Positions 16,736 to 62,475 of a stretch of DNA of 64,000 nucleotides are shown in pieces. Made by a program: the position numbers and the translations under genes. Source of the DNA: Diphasiastrum complanatum (taxonomy: Eukaryota > Streptophyta > Lycopodiopsida > Lycopodiales > Lycopodiaceae); NCBI GenBank assembly GCA_029204225.1, contig CM055111.1:10923999-10987998 (forward strand), read 5' to 3'. The first letter of the stretch is position 1. Each line of letters starts with the position of its first letter. Under the pieces are notes generated by a model that was not told the origin of the DNA, did not search any database, and saw only the letters and a program-made list of their open reading frames with translations.

Positions 16736-17309
16736 TATTCAAACGTTGGTGGGATGTGGAATTCACACAAGCCATTATCATTAACAACGAAATTAAAAAT
16801 TTTTTTACAAAAAATCGAATATTGCTTTGGAGCGCAAAGGATAAAAACCAAAAAACGAAAACTGAAGTGCATGCTTGAAATCGATATCGACAATAGGATA
16901 TCGTTCTCGAGTGTAGATGAAATGAACAAAAAAGAAGAACATTGGGAGCACGCTCAAAAGCGATATCACTGGGTATCAGTCTCGAGTGCAGGATGTAGAG
17001 TGTACGGGCTCAAGAAGAAAATGTAGCGCTTGAGATCGATATCGGAGGAAGAATTTTTGTTTTCACAACAGAAAATGAGCCTTCGCGATGTTAATATATA
17101 CTCGAGTCTCCACACGTGTGAAAGTCAGTAGATCTGGACACGTGTCATCATCGTAATTTGCCATGTGTACTTTCATACAGACAATTATTGCCCCATTAAT
17201 GGACACGTGTGTGTGCCATGTGTCAGTTTCTCATTTCTGCATGTGTTGATGCATTGTTGGTGGGAGAAGTGTCTGAACACAAATTCACCACGTGTCATGC
17301 AATGAGCAC
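16736..17309 (-). promoter_or_regulatory. upstream region of histone/Ulp1 copy 1 with CACGTG repeats
   Basis: Immediately 5' of the copy-1 gene. It contains at least five CAC(A/G)TGTG-type sites (CCACACGTGTG near 17112, GGACACGTGTC near 17137, GCCATGTGTAC near 17161, GGACACGTGTGTG near 17202, CACGTGTC near 17290) and repeated GATATCG words (16880-17050). The arrangement resembles the better preserved region 57963-58806 upstream of copy 2. CACGTG is the core recognised by plant bHLH and bZIP factors; regulation is inferred. Confidence 0.5.
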
Positions 17310-19200: not shown

Positions 19201-20790
19201 CCCTCTCGACCTTCGTTTGGCTGGATTAGCTGGTCCTTTCTGCTCTCCTAGAGATTGTTCACTTTCTTGTACTGAGGGATCCACAAAATTATCATCATCA
19301 TTTTCATTATCAGTAGAAGATTCAAACAGTAACATAAATGTCTGAGTTCCTTGATCTTGCATCACTGGCTTTGCCGCAAGTAAGGCCTTCAACTGACCCG
19401 CTTGCTCCTGAAGATATTTAATTTGTTCATGATCAGCTGGATTGGTTCATTCAACGGCATTTTTTAAAAATTTCTACGGCCTTTCACTCGGTTCTCCCTC
19501 GTCCTCATCTGAACTTGATAACTCGTCTTCTTCAACATCTTTAAACAATGTAGTTGACAGAGCTTCATTTTCTTGTTGCAAGGGATTTAAAAATTTATTC
19601 GTTATCAACTCTATGGTATCTATCCTGTATTTTTCGAACTTTGCTCTATTTACAGATACACCCCTTATCATTGGTAATATATATAGAATCCACAAAAGAA
19701 CGTAAGGTCTGATTTTCCAGCTGCAACTAAATCAAATTTGTTTCATACTACAATCTCTCATCCTGAAAAGTTTTAGCAATTTCCATTCTCGGCTTAAGAT
19801 CATCTAATTCTTTCTGCAGCTTCATAGACTTTCCTTGCGCAGCAAAATACTTATTTTGTTCTTCCAGGAATAAATTTTTCTGAGTTGATACCTCAACTCT
19901 AAGCTCTTCTATTTCCTTCTGCATTTGAGCTTCTATTAATTCTTTTTGCAATAATTCTTGCGAACACAGCTCCCGATTAGACAAAGTAGATATGAGATTC
20001 TGCTGAGTCTGGATTTGTAATTGCAAGCGTAGCACGTCATTTTTGTCTTGCTCCCGCTTCCAAGCATTATATGCTCTTGTGCTAACATTTTGCAATAAAG
20101 AATTTACAGTAGAGACTGGAAGATATATCTGCAAAATTTAATTCGAGCCCTTCTTCTGAACTTGGCAGTGGATTCAGCTTTCAGGGCTCGATGATATTGG
20201 CTTCTTCGTTAGCATCTTCCGCTGCTCCCTGTCTTTCAGCTTCAATAGGGCTTGCAGGCCTAGATGCCTCATTAACATTTTCTTCCACCGATCTTTAACT
20301 TCTTCCTCTTGCTCCTCCATCGTATGGTCTATTAGTGATAATGTATCATCTATATGCATTGTTTCAGTCTCAGAGTTCCGCTCATCTTCTACTGGATCTT
20401 CTATCAGATGATCAATCGTTGGAGTCATCGTTTTATTCAGAATTTGTGTTTCATCATCACTTAAGCAGATCGAAATAGAAAACTAGGTGACTCAGCTGAG
20501 CTCCCCACAACTTAATATAGTGTCTTCTTTAATCCTTTCAAAAACATTTGATACTAAATAATAGCCAATCTACTGCTTCTCCGTCATGTATTTGCATGAA
20601 ATACCCAGTATTTGAAGCTGATATTGTAGCATTTTTATCAATATTGTATATCATGTCCCACATCCATTTCACAAAGCCGATAAAAGAAAAATCTTTTAGA
20701 TAACTTAGCTTATATCCCTTCGTCTCTTGATAGATGGACTTTGAGGTGAGAGGCTTAACTAGATTACTGAAAGTTGATGTATGGAAGAAG
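19201..20790 (-). pseudogene. coiled-coil ORF of unknown TE family, copy G1
   Basis: Function not recognised. Minus strand, in order: a block with YKLSYLKDFSFIGFVKWMWD and DGEAVDWLLFSIKCFERIK (20740-20520); an acidic stretch with EEQEEEVKDRWKK (about 20300); a heptad-rich coiled coil of about 110 residues (19748-20134: KNDVLRLQLQIQTQQNLIST, LQKELIEAQMQKEIEELRVE); then ELITNKFLNPLQQENEAL and an acidic tail DEDEGEPSE. Frames change at about 20450, 20150, 19700 and 19450. Related sequence occurs at 37884-40910 (shared YKLSYIRDPKLKSF block) and probably 27900-29570, so this is a repeat-family protein, perhaps a structural Gag-like product. Confidence 0.5.
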
Positions 20791-21250
20791 TTTGACAGTG
20801 TGGTTAAAATTTTAAAGAAAGATATATCTATTGATATTCATAAAAATACAAAAGACTTATGTAGAGTTTGATGATGCAATATCAAAAGCATGAGGAGCAA
20901 ATCACATCACTCATTACATGGTTAGTGAAAATAAATAGACTTTTTTCTTAATGAATTATTTATGTTGATCTAAATATAAGACTGATACTACATTTCTAAC
21001 ATGTGCAACATATACTAAGAGATCATAGAGTACTTTTTGCAAATACATATGGAAGCTTGAATATCTAGTCATTACAAGGGATGGAGAAATCACATTGGCA
21101 AGCACATGCAACATTTCATCGAAACACTCATCATGGAAGAACCAATGAGAAAAGAAACTATATTTGTCAATTATTCCATTAGTTTTACCACAAAGTTCAA
21201 ATTCGAAAATAACAAAACCTACAAAGTACATGAAGTTTAGGAAAGCATGC
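20762..21250 (+). pseudogene. transposase-like gene J, partial copy 1
   Basis: The plus strand matches the C-terminal exons of the gene at 55150-56350: LLKVDVWKKFDSVVKIL, GANHITHYM, then an intron (20921-21007) and HILRDHRVLFANTYGSL, QGMEKSHWQAHATFHRNTHH, NEKRNYICQLFHXFYHKV. The donor GTTAGT is kept but the acceptor AG has become AA (GTGCAACATATAC here, ATGCAGCACATAC in copy 2). Frameshifts and stops are present. The longer minus-strand ORF across the same DNA is a shadow. Confidence 0.6.
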
Positions 21251-21289
21251 AAGTTTATACAGCAAGAGATCATCATATTTATCAGCATC

Positions 21290-21640
21290 TCCAATGGTTG
21301 TGTTATCATGGGGGAATTCTCGACTTCCAAATGAATCTAATATATGTGCATTGTTCCTATTACCACTTAATTCTATATATGTAGCATACAATGAACAACG
21401 GAAGCTTCTTAGAGGAGCATTTTCAGGCCCATATCCTAGAATTTTTCAAACATATGATCTCTTTACAAAAATGATCTAATTAGACTCAAAAACTTAAGTA
21501 GTGCGAGAGTGGCTTAACGGCCATAATCAAGGGTTCACTGATGGGGATAAACTTGGAATGAGCAATGCATATTTCATTATTTTAAGAATGCTCCAAATAG
21601 TAGCCCAATCCACTATCTCTGTGAAACATGTCTGAATGTT
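21290..21640 (-). pseudogene. gene K, partial copy 1
   Basis: Minus strand, convergent with the preceding gene as in the 55-58 kb block. It matches the last exon of K at 56497-57006: FHRDSGLGYYLEHS, NEICIAHSKFIPISEPLIMA, and ATYIELSGNRNNAHILDSFG followed by SREFPHDNTTIGDADK. A stop and a frameshift are present; upstream exons are missing. Function unknown. Confidence 0.6.
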
Positions 21641-22239
21641 GAAATTCAATTCCACTTCAACCATTTGATCCAGTTGCCACTATAATAGCTACCAACTATT
21701 TCCTTCAAGAATACATGACAGATTTCCTGACCTGGTTGTTATCTTGGGAACCTACCACAATTGACGAACTTGCAAATCTACACACAAATTTGAGACATGA
21801 TTCGTAATAGTCAACATCGACAGTCCTTCGACAATCGACAATTTTTCAACCCGACACTGTCACGACTCAATGTCTTAACCAACACCCTGTACTTCTGTTA
21901 CCACTATCAAGACTTCATGCTCCCTCAGTCCAAGGCTGACATATAATAGAGTAATTACAATCGTGTATATATCAGAGTTAGATGCACAACAACGAGAGAG
22001 ATGTAGCCAATGAATGTTTTTGTTATCATATCATTAGACTCTTATGTACTGACCTATCTAATTTGGACCATCAAGCCAGAGACACTCATGTTCTCTAGCC
22101 TAGATTTATTATTCGATTCTATGTTGAAATTCCAGGCATGTAAATTGATAAATAGAGTTCCTTACAACAGTCTTATGTACATTCACAGATTTTAATTAAA
22201 CTATGTGTTCTTCAGGCCAGTGCATAATGTGTGAATGGT
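21641..22239. other. no clear gene; possible copia Gag traces
   Basis: One plus-strand frame near 21685-21800 (YFLQEYMTDFLTWLLSWEPT) is vaguely Gag-like and precedes the pre-integrase fragment at 22240, but the match is too weak to call. Confidence 0.3.
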
Positions 22240-30049: not shown

Positions 30050-31065
30050 TAAATAGTTTAGAGAAATAGGTCCTTCCACAAGACTATTAGCACGTCGTAA
30101 TTTGGTAGAGAAAAAGCCGAAGGAATCCCTTAGGAAGTACACTCAAAGAGTTAAGAATTAGATAGGGAAACTAGGAGCACGGTATCCATTAGAGGAGTTT
30201 TGGGCTCCAAAAAGACCCTTTAAGAATTTGTGCAAGATGTAGTTTATATTATTAAAATATTATAACACTAACACCTTTGACTTGCCATAACTTTTTAATC
30301 ATATCTCAAAAGTATGTCACGTAACATATCATTAAGAAGCCCTTGTCAAGGCTTTCCAATGCACCAAACTCTGCTAAATTTGGACTTACCACTAAAAAGT
30401 TATGCCATTTTTAGTGTGGACTCAAAAAGTTACGTTACGTAGATTTCAAATTTGGGTGTTTTGATTGATCCATGTGTAAGAAAAAATTGAAAAAATATAT
30501 AAAAAGAATATTTACAAAGGTCTTTTTTGGATTTAGAACTCCTCTAATGCTATTCCCATGCAAAACGAATGGTCCTTGGGTGGACTACCCAAGAAGATGG
30601 ATAGGTACTATCGTCAAGGATTGATGAACTCATTAGAGGATGTCATAGCATCCGTAGAAAACTATGAAAGAAGAAGAAATGATAGAAAGAGTACTGGTAA
30701 GAAGCATAAACATAAAAGAATAGAAGAATCAGACTCATCTACGGAGTTTGAGTTAGAGTCCAATTCAACAGATGAAGAAAAGTCTTTTGATTCTTCATCT
30801 TATTCTTTGTCGTCTGAAGAAGAAACTAGTTATAGGAATTCTAAGAGGAAAACTCAAATAGGAGGCGAAGAATGAAAAAGTAAGAAAAGACAAATCCATT
30901 AAGGAAAAGTGTAGAGCATTTAGCGAAAGAAATGGGAGACTTAAAAGTCCAGATGTCCGACGTTAAAGCTAAGAAGAAGAAAGCAAACTCAAATGCTAAC
31001 GTTTAGTGTACAGCCTGTGGTAAAGAGGGACATTCTAAAATGAATTGTCCTAATTTACAAAATAG
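30050..31065 (+). pseudogene. Ty3/gypsy Gag, interrupted by a repeat
   Basis: The first part reads LVEKKPKESLRKYTQRVKN and IGKLGARYPLEEFW, the Gag core. It is broken at about 30245-30550 by an inserted dispersed repeat. Gag resumes with YYRQGLMNSLEDVIASVENY and a Lys/Ser/Glu-rich segment to 30875. After a frameshift the zinc knuckle CTACGKEGHSKMNC (CX2CX4HX4C) follows at about 31010-31055. The same family supplies the pol sequences downstream. Confidence 0.75.
30245..30550. repeat. dispersed repeat inside gypsy Gag, one ~167-bp monomer plus tail
   Basis: From 30276 it matches the two tandem units at 51691-52020 (shared TTTGACTTGCCA, AAGTATGTCA, GTCAAG, GCACCAAACTC, GGACTTACCACTAAAAAGTT). The tail 30430-30550 (GTAGATTTCAAAT, TTTACAAAGG, GAACTCCTCTAATG) matches 62350-62475. 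It interrupts the Gag frame, so it arrived after the gypsy element. Confidence 0.8.
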
Positions 31066-55150: not shown

Positions 55151-56350
55151 GTAAGTCACCTGCGAGTTTTGCGAGTTTTAGTTTCGACAAGCTACTAAAA
55201 GAGGATCATGATATATTATCATGGATATTCTCAAGGACATTTTATCCTAGGATCATCAAGGACCATATAGATGGAGGACTTCTCAATGTTCCAGGAGTTG
55301 GAGACTTTAATGTTGAATGGCACTTAGTAGGTGATTTGAAAACATTGAAATGTATGTATAATGTCTCTCATGGTGCTACATCAAAACACCCTTGTTTGTA
55401 CTGCATGAAAATGGCAAAACATGTAACTAAGAGTATAGGAATCACTAGAGAATATGCAGATCCAAGCCTGTGTTGCCTATCCCCTTAAAAAATGTGCATG
55501 TTTGCACTCTTTATGCAGAAGTTAGATTAATAGAAAAAATCATTTATCATCATATAGTTTTTGATTGGAATACTAAGCCATCATCATTAGCAAAGGAAGC
55601 TATCTCTCGATTAGAAGATGTTTTATCAAAAGCGGGACTTTATAAAGGACATGTCAAAATTCAAAAAGATGAAAAGCTTTCAGGAAAGAATGGGAACATG
55701 CCAACTAAGCCAAGCATAGGAGGAGCAAAAGCACGTCGTTTCCTATCAAATCATATTGGTAGGGCTTCTAATATTCAACACTCAGTCTGGATAGATATTA
55801 TTGCTGCTACTCAGGACTTCGAGAAAGACGGCAAAACCAGAGTACTAAAAGTTGATGTATGGAAAAACTTGATAGTATGATTGCTATTTTAAGGAAAAAA
55901 ATACTCTGATATTGATAAGAAAGCTGTCCAAAGGACTTGTGTCAAGTTTGTTAATGCAGTATCAAAAGCATGGGGAGATGATCACATCACTCATTACATG
56001 GTTAGTATTAAATTCTTAAAATGCTTTCAAATTTTCATATATATTTAGATCCAAACATAAGACTAACATTATGATTTTGACATATGCAGCACATACTAAG
56101 AGATCATACAACATTTTTTGCAAATACATATGGAAGCTTGAGTGTATGGTCATCACAAGGGATGGAGAAGTCACACTGGCAAGCATGAGCAGCATTTCAT
56201 CGAAATACACAACATGGAGGAACCAATGAAAAACAAAACTACATTTGTCAATTGTTTCAGTGGTTCTACTACAGAGTTCAGATTCGACATATAACAAAGT
56301 CCACACAATACAACAAGTTTAGAAAAGCATGCAAGTTCATACAGGAAGAG
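55150..56350 (+). pseudogene. transposase-like gene J, copy 2
   Basis: Multi-exon, plus strand. Segments: FDKLLKEDHDILSWIFSRTF, VEWHLVGDLKTLKCMYN with SHGATSKHPCLYCMKM (Cys-X2-Cys), KNVHVCTLYAEVRLIEKIIY with HHIVFDW, KPSIGGAKARRFLSNH, KAWGDDHITHYM, an intron 56001-56099 (GTTAGT...GCAG), then HILRDHTTFFANTYGSL, SSQGMEKSHWQA and NEKQNYICQLFQWFYYRVQI. This resembles a class of large eukaryotic TE-encoded proteins, but I cannot name the superfamily with confidence (KDZ-like is one possibility). Some frameshifts (55490, 55890) may be introns. A partial copy lies at 20762. It starts next to a gypsy breakpoint, so its N-terminus may be lost. Confidence 0.55.
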
Positions 56351-56496
56351 AAAATTAGATGATTGTTGAGTAGAAGATCATCATTGTCATCAAATCATGA
56401 CATGTTTAGAATTGCTTTGCAAATTCATTGAACAAGAAAGGAAATATAATCAACGTAAATGTATTGATTATATTATACCAAAATACAAAGTGTCAA

Positions 56497-57962
56497 CTAT
56501 TCATCATCAGATCTTGTGTCAGATTCTATGGCAGTATTGTCATGAAGAAATTCTCTGCTAGCGTATGCATCTAATAGATGTGCATTGTCCTTATTTTCAC
56601 TAATCTCAATATAAGTGGAATACAATGAATAATGAGAGCTCCTTAAAGGAACATTCCCATCAGTAAAGCCTAAAATGTTCAAAACATAAGATCTTTTGAC
56701 AAAAATGATCTTATTTGTCTTTACAAATTTATGTCCTCCTAGGTAAAATGATAAAGCTTTAACCGCCATTATAAGAGTCTCCCCGACTGGGCTCAGCTTG
56801 GAATGGGCAATACAGATCTCATTCTTCAGGAAATGCATAAGATAGTGGCCAAGTCCACTATCCCTCTGGAAAGACAATGTGTGTTGTCTGAAACCACCTC
56901 GTCTCGCAGCAAAATCATCTATTATAAGAGCATCCTGCAATAGAAAATATGTTAGCAAAACACATTCAGTGATTAAAAATATTGTAATGCAAGGAAGTTT
57001 AAACACTTACACATTCTTAATCATCAGCAGCAACCAGATCAGGATGATCAATATAATGACAACGTACTGTACTGGAATCATCCGTGAAATGCAATAATGA
57101 TGGACGAGGGAAGCCCATATGGGATTGAAATGCCATGAATTCTTCATCGGATGGTCTGCCTCACCCATCCTCAGCTGTATTTGATAAAGTCTTAGTCAAG
57201 CATTCTTCACCAGTCATAATTCCCTTCTCATCATCAAAATTAATACCAGCAACAAGGTCATCTGTTTCAAAATCTACAAAGTCGGAGAATTCGAAAATTG
57301 TGCCGGATAATAAACATAGAACCTCGTCTTCACGATAGTCAAAAAAATTACATAAATCAGTAGTAGTAAAATATACATCGTCATTAATATAATATACAGA
57401 CAAATTGAATATACATTTAGAATCCTCTATAGGGTTGGATTCATCAGCAGATGTATTTTGGCCAATAAAAAAATCCTATAGAGAATCAGTATTTATATCA
57501 ATAAAGTCACTTTCTTTATCAAGAGTGTCGATAAGAAAATGACTAATATCCTTAATAGCTGACTGAATGGAGGATGATGCAAAAGGAGGGTCAGCAACAG
57601 AAATTTCATCATCATCTGAGATCTGAACTAACTAAAAAAAGTATGAAACCACTCTGATATTCAACCAATCGACATTTCTTGTTGCAATAAGGACACAGTG
57701 AACTGTTTTTGAAAAGATCAAACAATTTGGTGAACATTCTATCCAGTCTATGCCTGAAAGCTAGGAAGAAATGAACTAGATCAGTATAATGCATGTACTG
57801 GAGTGAACCTATGGAGAAAATAGGCTTACTAAGTATATCTCTGAATCTAACATAATGTTGATAAAAAAATGTCAGAATTCGGTTATGCAGTCCTGAAAAC
57901 ATGTAGATATGGCCTGAATAGGCTGTGGAAGTAGTCCAGGTTTTCAGTAATGCCAAATTCAC
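56497..57962 (-). CDS. gene K, unknown protein, multi-exon
   Basis: Not recognised. Minus strand. First coding block 57962-57612 (LLKTWTTSTAYSGHIYMFSG, LCPYCNKKCRLVEYQSG with a CX2C...C cluster), then an acidic middle (57600-57030: DDEISVADPPFASSSIQS, YREDEVLCLLSGTIFEFSDF), then a last exon 57006-56497 with a long open frame (GGFRQHTLSFQRDSGLGHYL, NEICIAHSKLSPVGETLIMA, YSTYIEISENKDNAHLLDA). A few stops lie in the middle, and it may be decayed. It is convergent with J and divergent from the histone/Ulp1 gene. The K last exon and the J end recur together at 20.8-21.6 kb, which shows the pair travels as a unit. Confidence 0.5.
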
Positions 57963-58806
57963 TAAGAAATGAACTCAAGCCTAAATCTCATGAGGATCCT
58001 GAGGAAGAGGCCATCGAAATAACATGAATATCGGACTTATGCGCGAGGGAGAAGAGAAACAAAACTAACTATCAAGATGGCGCACAAGAGAGATATGTAC
58101 GGCGTGAGATACCGAATATTGCACTTGTGTGCAAGTACGTGTCGTTGAGTGCAAACGGACAACAAAGCGCACGCACAAGAGCGATATGCCGTGAATTTCG
58201 ATAACAAAAAAAGGTAAAAAATTAATCGATTTTTGTGCCATTTATACTAAATTTTTGCACGTGCGGTCAACGATCAATGGACACGTGTCTACTTTCCATT
58301 CGATTACAGCTACTCGCACGTGTGAGGTGACACCTAGACACGTGTGAAATGACAATTGGACACGTGTCACTCTATCATTTGCTTGTACAAATCCCACACA
58401 TGTAAAGTGATAATGTGACACATGTCGCTCTGTCATTAGTTCATACAACTCCCACACGTGTGATAGGACATTCTTTCGCACGTGCGAATCGCGATATAAA
58501 ATCACAAACTTCGATGAATATTTTTTGGTTTTTTTTTTTGCTCCGCATATCGCACTTGTGCGCGTCCTTCACAATCGAATTTCCACCCACCACCTTCCAT
58601 GTGCATAGGTCCGATACATCTGCCTACGTGTCCCCCCGTATCGCACTTGTGCACGTTTCTTCAAAACTAATCTCTTTCTCTTATATTCAGCTCGCACAGG
58701 TCCGATATACTGTACATTTTTTTCCATACATATCAGTCCTCTGTGAGATTTTTATCACCCTTCCCTACTTATCCTCGCCATCCCGCACAAGTTCGCTATT
58801 GCATAG
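57963..58806. promoter_or_regulatory. divergent promoter region with CACGTG array and GATATCGCAC repeats
   Basis: It separates minus-strand K from the plus-strand histone/Ulp1 gene. Between 58279 and 58486 there are eight CAC(A/G)TG-centred palindromes (near 58281, 58315, 58337, 58360, 58395, 58418, 58453, 58477), several as GACACGTGTC or CACACGTGTG. On both sides a second word recurs about seven times: CGCACAAG..CGATAT or its complement ATATCGCACTTGTGCG (58084, 58110, 58171, 58546, 58636, 58692, 58781). CGATATAAAATC near 58490 may be a TATA box. Similar motifs precede copy 1. Binding by bHLH/bZIP factors is an inference from the core. Confidence 0.6.
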
Positions 58807-60460
58807 TACACATCCATAGATAGGAGAAAGCAGACAAGGAGGAACTTCTTCTCTCTTGGCTCATCCTCAGCCCCTACGGTGGCCATTACCCCTCCTGCTA
58901 GTCATAGAACGCGCAACCACAGCATGTGGCTCTCTGAGATACGCAAGTACCAGAGATCAACTGCTTTGTTGATCCCAAGGGTTCCATTCTACCGTGCCGT
59001 CCAAAACATAACAAGAAATGATCTCAGACAGCTGGTCAGATTTACACCTAGTGCTCTTCAGTGCCTTCAAGAGGCTGCTGAAGATTACCTTAGTCTTTTT
59101 TTTGAAGATTCATTTTTGCTTGCCATCCATTTTCAGCTCCTGATGAGAATGAGGGATAGGTTTTGTAAGTTATACGTATCTCAGCCTTCTGCTCCCAGGC
59201 CAACTCCTGTAGATAGGACTGATCTTCCTACGAAGCGTCCTAGGAAGCAGAGAGCCCCCAAGAGAGCTCCAAAGAAAGTAAAGATTGTAGACACCACAGA
59301 TTCTGTGAAACCTGACCCGGAATCAATTGTAGATAACGTTATTGTTGATAATGTTGTAAATATAGCTACAGCTATTTTGGATACCACTTTAATTCCTGTA
59401 GATACCACACATCCACCTCCTCCTTTTATACATATATAGATTCGGATGAGTATCTTAAATTTGAGAAAGACATATCTGATGCTATAGATATAATTGGTAC
59501 TCCTTTTTGTTTTAGACTAGATGAACTTGATTTTAGTATTAATTTTAGAGTTCTAGATTGCTTGGATCTCAAAGACAGACGGACTTCTATCAGTGATCCT
59601 ATGATAGAGTTCGGGCTGACACTCTTGCAATTTGACATTGCAAGAGATTCATCCAATGAGTTAATAGTGCTGAGTAACTTTCTGCTCCAGGCCTTCAAGG
59701 AGAATAATGACACATTGTCACAATGTCTGACAAGTGGATTCACACCAACAACAAAATATCTGCTCATCCCTTATCATACCAAGTAAGATATATTAAATGC
59801 TTCTTGTTGTTTTATGCATTAACATTGGCATTTTCAATTTAAATAGTTCTCAGAATTGCTCTAAAGGACTTTCAATCTTATTTTGCAGTGACCACTAGAG
59901 TTTAAACCTGATCGCTATTAAGAGATCTGTAAATAATATTATCAAAGGTTTTTGTGTCAAGATGAATTCGATGGGAAATACGCATAAGGATGTAGATATA
60001 TATCTGCCATATTTAAGTAAATATATTCCTACAAATGTTTCCCATTCCGTGGACTGGGAGATCGTGAGTTTGGAGGTAAACTCTGTCTTTCTTAATAGCA
60101 TGTTGAAATCAGTATTCTAATGTTATTGTTTCATTCTAATTAATTCTGTTTCATAATTGATTTCTTTTGTGCTGAATTATTTTGCAGTCACCACAACAAA
60201 ATGATTCTCTCGGTTGTGGTTGGTACACATTATACAATGCAAAGCTATTTTTTGAGTGGTTCAACCTTCAGCAAGATGTTGATATTTCTAAGGTAATAAA
60301 TTCTGGGTATTTTCATTTTGGAATCATAATTAGTTTTCTATTTTGTTGATGTTTTTAGCCAATACTAATACATAAATATTCTATTTTGCAGTTTACACTT
60401 CCTAAGTACTCAGCAAGCCAGGTGTACAGATTCAGACAAGAAATCTACTGGCTAGGGTAA
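58807..60460 (+). CDS. histone-H3-fold / Ulp1 (C48) protease fusion gene, copy 2
   Basis: Exon 1 is open from 58807 but has no ATG before the one at 58924. The tail reads RRKQTRRN...ASHRTRNHS, then the H3 fold: EIRKYQRSTALLIPRVPFYR, NITRNDLRQLVRF (one residue longer than H3 in loop 1, as in centromeric H3), SALQCLQEAAEDYL, FFEDSFLLAIH. A Lys/Arg/Pro-rich linker follows (59200-59290). At about 59425 the frame shifts by one base. Then come SDEYLKFEKDISDAIDI and a Ulp1-like domain over four exons: YLLIPYHTNDH-stop-SLNLIA (His of the triad; Trp replaced by TAG), CVKMNSMGNTHKD (Asn where Asp is usual), SPQQNDSLGCGWYTLY (Gln and catalytic Cys), YSASQVYRFRQEIYWLG. Introns 59783-59888, 60076-60187 and 60293-60391 all have GT...AG. 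If active it would cleave SUMO-like conjugates at chromatin; the stop and frameshift suggest recent decay. Confidence 0.72.
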
Positions 60461-60639
60461 GGCTTCAGTTTCCCTTTATTGATGATGGTGCAAAGGATGA
60501 TGTAGTTGTACTAAATTAAGATCAGAACAAATATAGATAGCATAGAAAAAAAATACATGTATAGAATTCATTAAAAAATATACATTTATATATTATATGT
60601 TGTTCCATTTTATGAATTTGGGAGCACAAAATACATGTA

Positions 60640-62060
60640 CTGATGCCCAACTTGGTGATTGTTTTAGGTAGATCTTTGCAGCATGTTATCAGCTCCTATC
60701 TTTTTCGCATCTGTGACATGACAAATATTAGTGAATGTGCAATTGTAAATGATGACATTTTCTATTATTTTGTTCTATTTCGACATGGCAATAAACATAA
60801 AGTACTTACGAGTCTTCCGTTGATGATAAATTTGAAATATGTTGGCAGATTGGTTTGTAATAGCATGAGCTCTGTTCTGATAAAATCAAGCTTCCAATGT
60901 TCTTCCACCTCAACCATAGTCATATATTCCTCATTGTAGATAATGCTTATCTCCATTCGGTTTGTGTGACCATTTAGTTCAAAGTCTTGATCCAGTGGTA
61001 GCCATGTACCTTCAATTTTCTTGTATCTCTAGTAGCTAAATGTGAGTCTGAGCATTTGCTTTTCGATATGATAATGAAAGATCATTGAGGACTTTTTAAT
61101 CATGCATTCTATGTCATTATTTGTTTTACTATCCCAGCCTTGATCCATGAGATCTGACAAAGTCTCATCTGATAAATCCTTGCAAACAAATAAAGTTGGT
61201 GTCCTACGAACACTACCACTCGAGAAAAAATCAACAAATATATGTAATGAGATAAACCAGCTTAGGTGAACAATTTTTGAGCCTGTGCTTATCTTCATGG
61301 CATTTCTAATATCAATTAGTACTTGCATCTCAAGGATTCAGAAACAATGTTGTCAAGAGTAGGCCACTCATCACTTTGAAAACTAGGCAATGGAATTGCT
61401 TCGAGCTTGCCAAAACCTCCATCTGTTTGTGGCATATATAAAGATTCATAAAAATAGATACCACAATCTGCAAGTTTCTTTGGACTTCTTCCTCTGTATT
61501 GCAGCTTTCCAACATCAGAGTGAATCACGTCTAATATTCCTTCAAGTGATTGTGCGGGCTCCCATTCACTTATGCATGATGGATATAAATTTGAAAGAAA
61601 AAAACAATGTTGAAGCATTTAAATCATAATCTAAAGAGCAACAATAAAGAAAATCACCTATGATTGCTGTAGAGTGCATATGTTTTGATATACTTACAAT
61701 TACATTTTCGATGATCATGAGGATTGATATCATGTACTTTGATTTCTGAATGCATATATACATGTTGTACTAAGACTTCTGATATAGATTGACCTCCCAG
61801 GATAGTCTTAAACTCCAAAATTTTTGCTTTCCAATAAGATTTGTAAGTCATTTTTGCTCTTTTCTTTTGTCAAAAATTGCCCTTTGATGATGGATGCAGC
61901 AATACCCATGAGTTCTTCGTATATTTTGTTGGCTTCCAGTTATCAGCTTCATCTTTCTCATTGTAACACAGAATCGATTGTAGATCTGGGTCTCCTTACC
62001 ACTGCTATTTTCAAAGCTTGGGCGCCAAAAATCTCTCTGATATGATACTTAATTTCAATT
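60640..62060 (-). CDS. gene L, unknown protein, multi-exon
   Basis: Not recognised. Minus strand, convergent with the histone/Ulp1 gene. Blocks in order: CYNEKDEADNWKPTKYTKNS and MTYKSYWKAKILEFKTILGG (62010-61700), EWEPAQSLEGILDVIHSDVG and GGFGKLEAIPLPSFQSDEWP (61570-61330), VLIDIRNAMKISTGSKIVHL and FVCKDLSDETLSDLMDQGWD (61320-61030), then EGTWLPLDQDFELNGHTNRM and a last block to 60765 (MVEVEEHWKLDFIRTELMLL). Splice-like sites separate some blocks, and stops occur at about 61335 and 61029. No domain identified; its link to the block is by position only. Confidence 0.4.
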
Positions 62061-62224
62061 TTTCGTATCACATTTAATCTAATGTGAATGCCAACATAGT
62101 CACAGTTACTGCGTATACCATATTTTATGTAACTGTACATACTGTATTTCTATAACTGTAACTAGTATAGTTAGAAAAATTCATTATACTAACCAGCATA
62201 GTCAAGTAAATTTAATTTGAAGTA

Positions 62225-62475
62225 TTGACGTCGGACAGATTAGCACGTGTCGGGGAGGAAGAAGAAACCAATGGGATACGTCCATGTTGCCCGGACACAA
62301 ATTTCAAAGTTTTTTATATTGCATTTTTATTTCTCAGTTAATTTGAACTGCATTATGTAGATTTCAAATCTATGCATTTTGATTGGGCCTGGTGATGGTC
62401 GAAACTAAAAAAAAATAAATAAAAGTATCTTTACAAAGGGTCTTATTGATATTGAGAACTCCTCTAATGTTCCAT
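62225..62475. repeat. dispersed repeat tail inside gypsy sequence
   Basis: Positions 62350-62475 match 30430-30550 (GTAGATTTCAAAT, TTTTGATTG, TTTACAAAGG, GAACTCCTCTAATG). In both places the repeat interrupts a gypsy coding frame and ends at the same word, which suggests a mobile element with a fixed end. Confidence 0.65.

Follow-up and report, generated by a model that had tools for sequence, protein, structure and literature searches.

Results

A histone H3 fold and a C48 domain in one clubmoss gene

The DNA analysed here, a window of 64,000 nucleotides of the clubmoss Diphasiastrum complanatum (contig CM055111.1 of assembly GCA_029204225.1, positions 10,923,999 to 10,987,998), contains a gene in which an H3-like tail and histone fold are followed by a basic linker and a C48 domain of the Ulp1 type. 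We refer to it as the H3-C48 gene; it lies in a repeated element with several genes (Table 1). In a Pfam scan, the open reading frame at 58807-59439 (+) matched the family PF00125 Histone with 8.9e-18 and 65.1 bits (cut-off 26.4), and it also matched solved nucleosome H3 chains (top E 1.3e-16). Two relatives of the gene reached 87.9 and 82.2 bits against the same cut-off of 26.4. These relatives possess the full H3 fold, including loop 2 with RVTxMPKD and alpha3, whereas the window copy is short of about 10 residues of loop 2. The start of exon 1 was set by comparison with the relatives, Ile occupying the start position in the window copy.

The gene is split into four exons and every intron is GT-AG. 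When the exons were spliced and the stop was read as X, the family PF02902 Peptidase_C48 was matched with 1.1e-6 and 29.1 bits (cut-off 20.7). The exon with PQQ and GCGWY alone remained under the cut-off (16.2 bits) and, in a comparison with solved structures, the whole C48 part found Ulp1 at E 0.07 only. Exon borders are identical in those relatives of the same family (family 1, see below) that retain the exons, and the PQQ-type exon of family 2 is likewise bounded by AG/GT. A sequence-only reading of this DNA had described an H3-like helix series, a C48-like core over four GT-AG exons, a one-base frameshift between the two modules and a nonsense codon beside the active-site His. The profile and structure matches bear out the first, and the PF02902 match together with the exon borders bears out the second. 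Both lesions are present in the window copy, which has a single frame break near 59430, within exon 1 and between the modules, and a stop adjoining the His.

That reading had also named the His-Asp-Cys triad and conserved Gln of Ulp1 proteases. Most copies retain the active-site His, Gln and Cys: the His is found in 8 of 8 copies of family 1, in 3 of 4 of family 2 and in the single copy L053 (1/1), and the Cys in 5 of the 6 family-1 copies having that exon and in 3 of 3 of family 2, both residues being gone in copy B (see below). The Asp did not hold, as its position is taken by Asn, a point to which we return in the Discussion.

Copies of the gene and their reading frames

A tblastn search of the window revealed copy B, another H3-C48 gene, now decayed, whose histone, linker and C48 follow one another as in the first. 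In the 8 kb to the right of the window a third copy, C, was found, of which the linker and the last exon alone remain, and with 100 kb searched on each side a fourth, D, was located at about 87 kb, counted from the start of the window (10,000 of the 272,000 bases of window and flanks searched were N). From a search of the whole genome the best 150 of 6524 candidates were scored, all with E 6.3e-74 or better; rows of equal score on small contigs are probably duplicates. The matched stretch was stop-free in 44 of these 150 rows, the window included, and had stops inside the match in the other 106, while a stop-free open frame of at least 337 amino acids was present in 19.

In all six long-frame copies fetched, one frame runs from the fold through the linker into the first C48 part, and two of the six are without defect in the exons read. 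A continuous H3-C48 frame was also observed in copies of a diverged family. In locus L026 the tail contains a stop, and the frame is lost near the end of exon 1. The sequence-only reading had expected the living version elsewhere in the genome and had proposed to look for other copies and to run the Histone and Peptidase_C48 profiles; open-frame copies with both modules were indeed found elsewhere and both families were matched.

Related families and the histone tree

We examined 30 H3-bearing loci of this genome and sought C48 pieces by tblastn in the DNA fetched. Six of the 15 loci that proved positive for C48 had been picked for open frames, and the other 24 loci came from the list of a CENH3-like query, with frame length considered. 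The positive loci belong to family 1, the window type (L025-L030, L054), family 2 (L037, L038, L040, L055, L056) and family 4 (L044 and L058, where the fetched DNA covers the first C48 part only), with L053 listed apart from these families. In L048, a relative of family 4, tblastn found no C48 in the DNA fetched. Loop 1 of the histone, a longer form of which is a mark of CENH3, is longer in families 1 and 2, and not in copy D or family 3. Besides, there is an unfused multi-copy histone (L035, L036, L039, L041, L042, L045-L047, L049-L052, L057, L059), which mostly has a Pro-rich start (not L051) and an H3 fold that ends near ARRLRRERN.

In a midpoint-rooted tree of 36 rows and 88 columns, with many weak inner branches and a bootstrap that had not settled, all 28 element loci included (the other two of the 30, L038 and L056, are missing from it, as are the window copies) separate together with the metagenomic protein P0006 from host H3 and the remaining rows with a support of 97/96. 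Fungal centromeric-type rows group with host H3. Since the element histones stand apart from host H3, a recent capture of host H3 is disfavoured by the tree. Host CENH3 was not found: the CENH3-like query retrieved 13 canonical-looking H3 rows and then element-type histones.

Selection on the modules

Ratios of nonsynonymous to synonymous substitution (dN/dS) were computed by the Nei-Gojobori method with our own script, with 95% bootstrap intervals over codons. In family 1 (n=7), the ratio was 0.12 (0.07-0.23) for the histone fold at a dS of 0.39, 0.60 (0.38-0.98) for the linker and 0.29 (0.17-0.50) for the first C48 part, in pairs that are not independent and among copies picked for open frames. 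With the window as eighth copy, the two pieces of the next exon gave 0.33 (0.10-0.99) and 0.24 (0.08-0.64). An earlier run with six copies had yielded 0.15 for the histone, 0.48 for the tail, 0.68 for the linker and 0.40 for C48, the latter with its out-of-frame end included. For the C48 piece of family 2 the value was 0.44, for which no usable bound was obtained. In family 1, the histone fold is strongly constrained and has changed far less than the adjoining linker, as expected under selection.

Tail and conserved residues of the element histone

Tails could be read in 17 loci: the position of H3 K4 is Lys in all of them, while that of K9 is Lys in none, being Asp, Asn, Gly, Ala, Leu or Thr instead (two copies have a Lys one place before it). 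The K27 motif ARKS is absent from all 17 readable tails. An exact ARTKQTAR tail is present in two family-2 copies, and variants of it in the other family-2 copies, in families 1 and 4 and in copy D, in which the tail is shifted by one residue; copy B and L053 have tails that cannot be read in frame. Where copies are intact, they retain R83, H113, K115, R116, T118, D123 and L126, residues with known roles in H3.

The element that carries the gene

Copy A of the element, which holds the window gene, is colinear with a copy on contig C11 (91% over 7451 bp). The order transposase (+), G4-G3 (-), H3-C48 (+) is common to A, the C11 copy and D, in the last up to a copia-like insertion in its histone. 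A convergent gene (-) comes next in A, C, the C11 copy and a C23 copy, a transposase match being absent from the C23 stretch. On the minus strand the right end reads CATTAGAG in A and the C11 copy, with a variant in C. The left end is visible in copy D, and both ends are present in two short elements, 363 and 365 bp long. A search for the left terminus in the C11 copy was negative, and there is no clear target-site duplication around the two short elements. Shared gene order, colinear copies and terminal repeats support the earlier proposal of a transposon-borne protein, and the repeated multi-gene element is likely a DNA transposon.

Table 1. Features of the window, numbered from its first nucleotide
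Feature	Position	Strand	Remarks
Exon 1 of the H3-C48 gene: H3-like tail, histone fold, basic linker, first C48 part	58816..59782	+	GT donor at 59783
Histone H3 fold	58927..59170	+	about 10 loop-2 residues gone in the window copy
Basic Pro-rich linker	59171..59429	+	RPRKQRAPKRAPKK...
C48 exon with His, adjoining stop and Asn at the Asp position	59889..60075	+	KMNS
C48 exon with PQQ and GCGWY	60188..60292	+	Gln and Cys
Last exon	60392..60460	+	terminates with TAA
Copy B, diverged and decayed H3-C48 gene	15175..16900	-	
Element copy A	55182..62469	+	colinearity with the C11 copy; left end lost against gypsy-like DNA
Transposase gene (TNP)	55182..56351	+	5' end truncated
Gene(s) G4-G3	56500..57974	-	conserved order, opposite strand
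Upstream stretch with repeated motifs	58024..58720	+	CACTTGTGCG-like and ACACGTGT-like
Convergent partner gene	60768..62048	-	
Right terminal inverted repeat	62429..62469	-	CATTAGAGGAGTTCTC...
TNP and G3 remnant of another copy	20736..21641	+	
Non-autonomous element of 363 bp	30187..30549	+	both terminal repeats

A Pfam scan of the transposase (TNP) gave no match, and in particular no Mutator-like element (MULE) domain. A protein search returned 32 matches; among them is a gene model from the fern Adiantum nelumboides, the rest being unnamed or hypothetical proteins. Acidic residues are invariant in the family and a CxxC is nearly so. One relative was modelled from 25 sequences with a predicted local distance difference test (pLDDT) of 68.5 and a predicted template modelling (TM) score of 0.53, and RAG1 and HzTransib top all structure matches of this model at 11-15% identity, so that the predicted fold is that of an RNase H-like transposase of the RAG1/Transib type. 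As a CACTA-type structure is absent among the matches listed, the transposase is not assigned to Transib.

For G4-G3 no Pfam family was found above the cut-off. The partner gene, a counterpart of which also lies at L004 2206-3540 (-), has only sub-threshold Pfam matches to families of unknown function; its C-terminal part has a ubiquitin-like look by eye only, and we do not call it ubiquitin-like. The CACTTGTGCG-like and ACACGTGT-like motifs stand upstream of H3-C48 genes, also at about 17100-17150 in the window, and could be candidate binding sites of an element protein.

Discussion

A proposed role in keeping the element expressed

It is well known that hosts silence transposons through histone modification. 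We propose that the H3-C48 protein, encoded in a likely DNA transposon, keeps its element expressed by way of the element's own chromatin, a proposal that we regard as evenly poised between right and wrong. The protein would enter nucleosomes, or mimic the H3 tail, on the chromatin of the element. Since K4 is kept while K9 and the K27 motif are absent, the element histone could not bear the common silencing marks. The C48 part would strip SUMO from silencing factors on this chromatin or, if Asn in place of Asp has killed catalysis, would bind SUMO instead, and as an outcome the element would stay expressed. SUMO backs chromatin silencing in yeast, plants and animals (PMC8131101). A histone with K4 and without K9 and the K27 motif, joined to C48, would fit an anti-silencing role. 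The more specific picture, in which the transposon makes its own nucleosomes of this kind and a histone-bound deSUMOylase clears the silencing machinery from its own DNA, is tentative and, in our view, rather doubtful.

Several observations weigh against these proposals. Asn replaces the catalytic Asp in 13 of 13 readable copies, window included (the register of this position being inferred from the motif pattern), and C48 catalysis may therefore be weak or absent. Fifteen of the 30 H3-bearing loci have no C48 within the DNA fetched (tblastn), and 14 of them form one group of unfused H3 without an H3-type tail. This, together with the Asn, calls for caution on an anti-silencing role. Four of the six long-frame copies have a downstream stop, an absent exon or a lost Cys, and one of these four also a stop in the tail. 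The contrast between modules is weaker in family 2, with 0.33 for the histone (0.16-0.71, n=5) and 0.56 for the linker (n=4), and the histone ratio of family 4, 0.46 (0.17-1.30, n=3), is not significant. Finally, the model of the transposase has intermediate confidence and its TM-scores are low (0.19-0.35 by query length). Of the sequence-only interpretation, a transposon-borne fusion that could bring deSUMOylation to nucleosomes, the true fusion, its place in the element and the open-frame copies stand, whereas the His-Asp-Cys triad keeps its His and Cys in most copies and has lost its Asp.

Other explanations

The Asn would be accounted for if C48 were an inactive protease whose role is to bind SUMO or another ubiquitin-like protein, perhaps that of the partner gene, with the histone as its chromatin tether. 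We consider this unlikely, if worth weighing: the look of the adjoining gene would suit it, but Pfam does not make that gene ubiquitin-like, the His and the Cys persist in nearly all copies of families 1 and 2 in which they could be read (8/8 and 3/4; 5/6 and 3/3), and papain-type enzymes function with Asn. Alternatively, the histone could be a cofactor of transposition that packs or bends the element ends or steers insertion by chromatin, silencing being irrelevant. The fixed gene order in which the histone gene accompanies the transposase would agree with this, but the C48 domain and the retained K4 motif are left unexplained, and we think it improbable.

That captured host genes for a histone and a protease are carried along passively and decay, as does H3 in a fungal hAT element, is suggested by the broken window copies A and B and by the stops in 106 of the 150 scored rows. 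Such cargo is hard to reconcile with a histone-fold dN/dS of 0.12 at dS 0.39 or with the separation from host H3 (97/96), and we give it very little credence. An error that joins two adjoining genes, which the frame break between the modules in the window copy might suggest, is rejected, as is chance, on account of the continuous frames in 6/6 copies fetched and in those of a diverged family and by the two Pfam matches.

If the proposed role in expression is true, the element would counter silencing at the nucleosome itself with its own altered histone and an enzyme of the SUMO pathway, and a single protein would allow a direct test of how SUMO and H3K9 contribute to the control of transposons. 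It would also be, within the searches made, the first transposon whose histone gene is under constraint; no such element was reported in the literature searched, which left out most subscription papers.

Comparison with known systems

The anti-silencing KIU/VANC genes of Arabidopsis VANDAL elements resemble the H3-C48 gene in being plant transposon genes with a Ulp1 domain among several element genes (PMC13317346). According to that source, elements of the VANDAL group escape silencing, and those bearing Ulp1 lead to hypomethylation of related elements, the role of the Ulp1 domain being said to be unknown (PMC13317346). As described there, VANDALs are MULEs without terminal inverted repeats, whereas the clubmoss element has such repeats, its transposase showed no MULE domain when scanned with Pfam and is predicted to fold like RAG1/Transib, and its Ulp1-type gene has an N-terminal histone fold. 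In Pseudocercospora, H3 sequence was likewise multiplied by a DNA transposon, of the hAT type; there, all H3 copies except the original were reported to be inactivated by repeat-induced point mutation, whereas the clubmoss fold is constrained and fused to C48 (PMC6710886).

With the transposases of RAG1, Transib and CACTA-Mirage-Chapaev (CMC) elements, the clubmoss transposase shares the predicted fold, the invariant acidic residues and the near-invariant CxxC. CAC termini are the rule in transposons of that kind; the clubmoss element differs in its termini (CATTAGAG), in the lack of a Pfam match and in that no clear target-site duplication was found around the two short elements. Histones of their own are also brought by viruses, such as those of Marseilleviridae and the bracovirus H4. 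These are selfish elements too, but viruses, with other histones and no C48, and a viral origin was rejected: viral contigs were scanned twice, once with P0061 (described below) and once using the transposase alignment, and neither scan confirmed a relative.

No other named plant yielded a close relative of the fused gene, either with the window histone (3 matches) or among the 120 of 125 matches listed for the fusion alignment. P0004 and P0005, at the top of the latter search, were dropped as doubled canonical H3 genes. Three loci from a genome search with PF02902 were also set aside, as they resemble ordinary cellular ULP-type genes and not the H3-C48 family, whose C48 is intron-split. The sole protein with both Pfam domains among the 120 of 125 matches listed was P0061, a metagenomic protein of 549 amino acids from an ENA contig (PF00125, 9e-42; PF02902, 6.5e-23). 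Like the clubmoss genes, it joins H3 to C48 in one protein; unlike them, it keeps a WDS motif in its classical C48 domain, and in the tree its canonical-type H3 groups with host H3. This suggests that the pairing of H3 and C48 may have arisen more than once.
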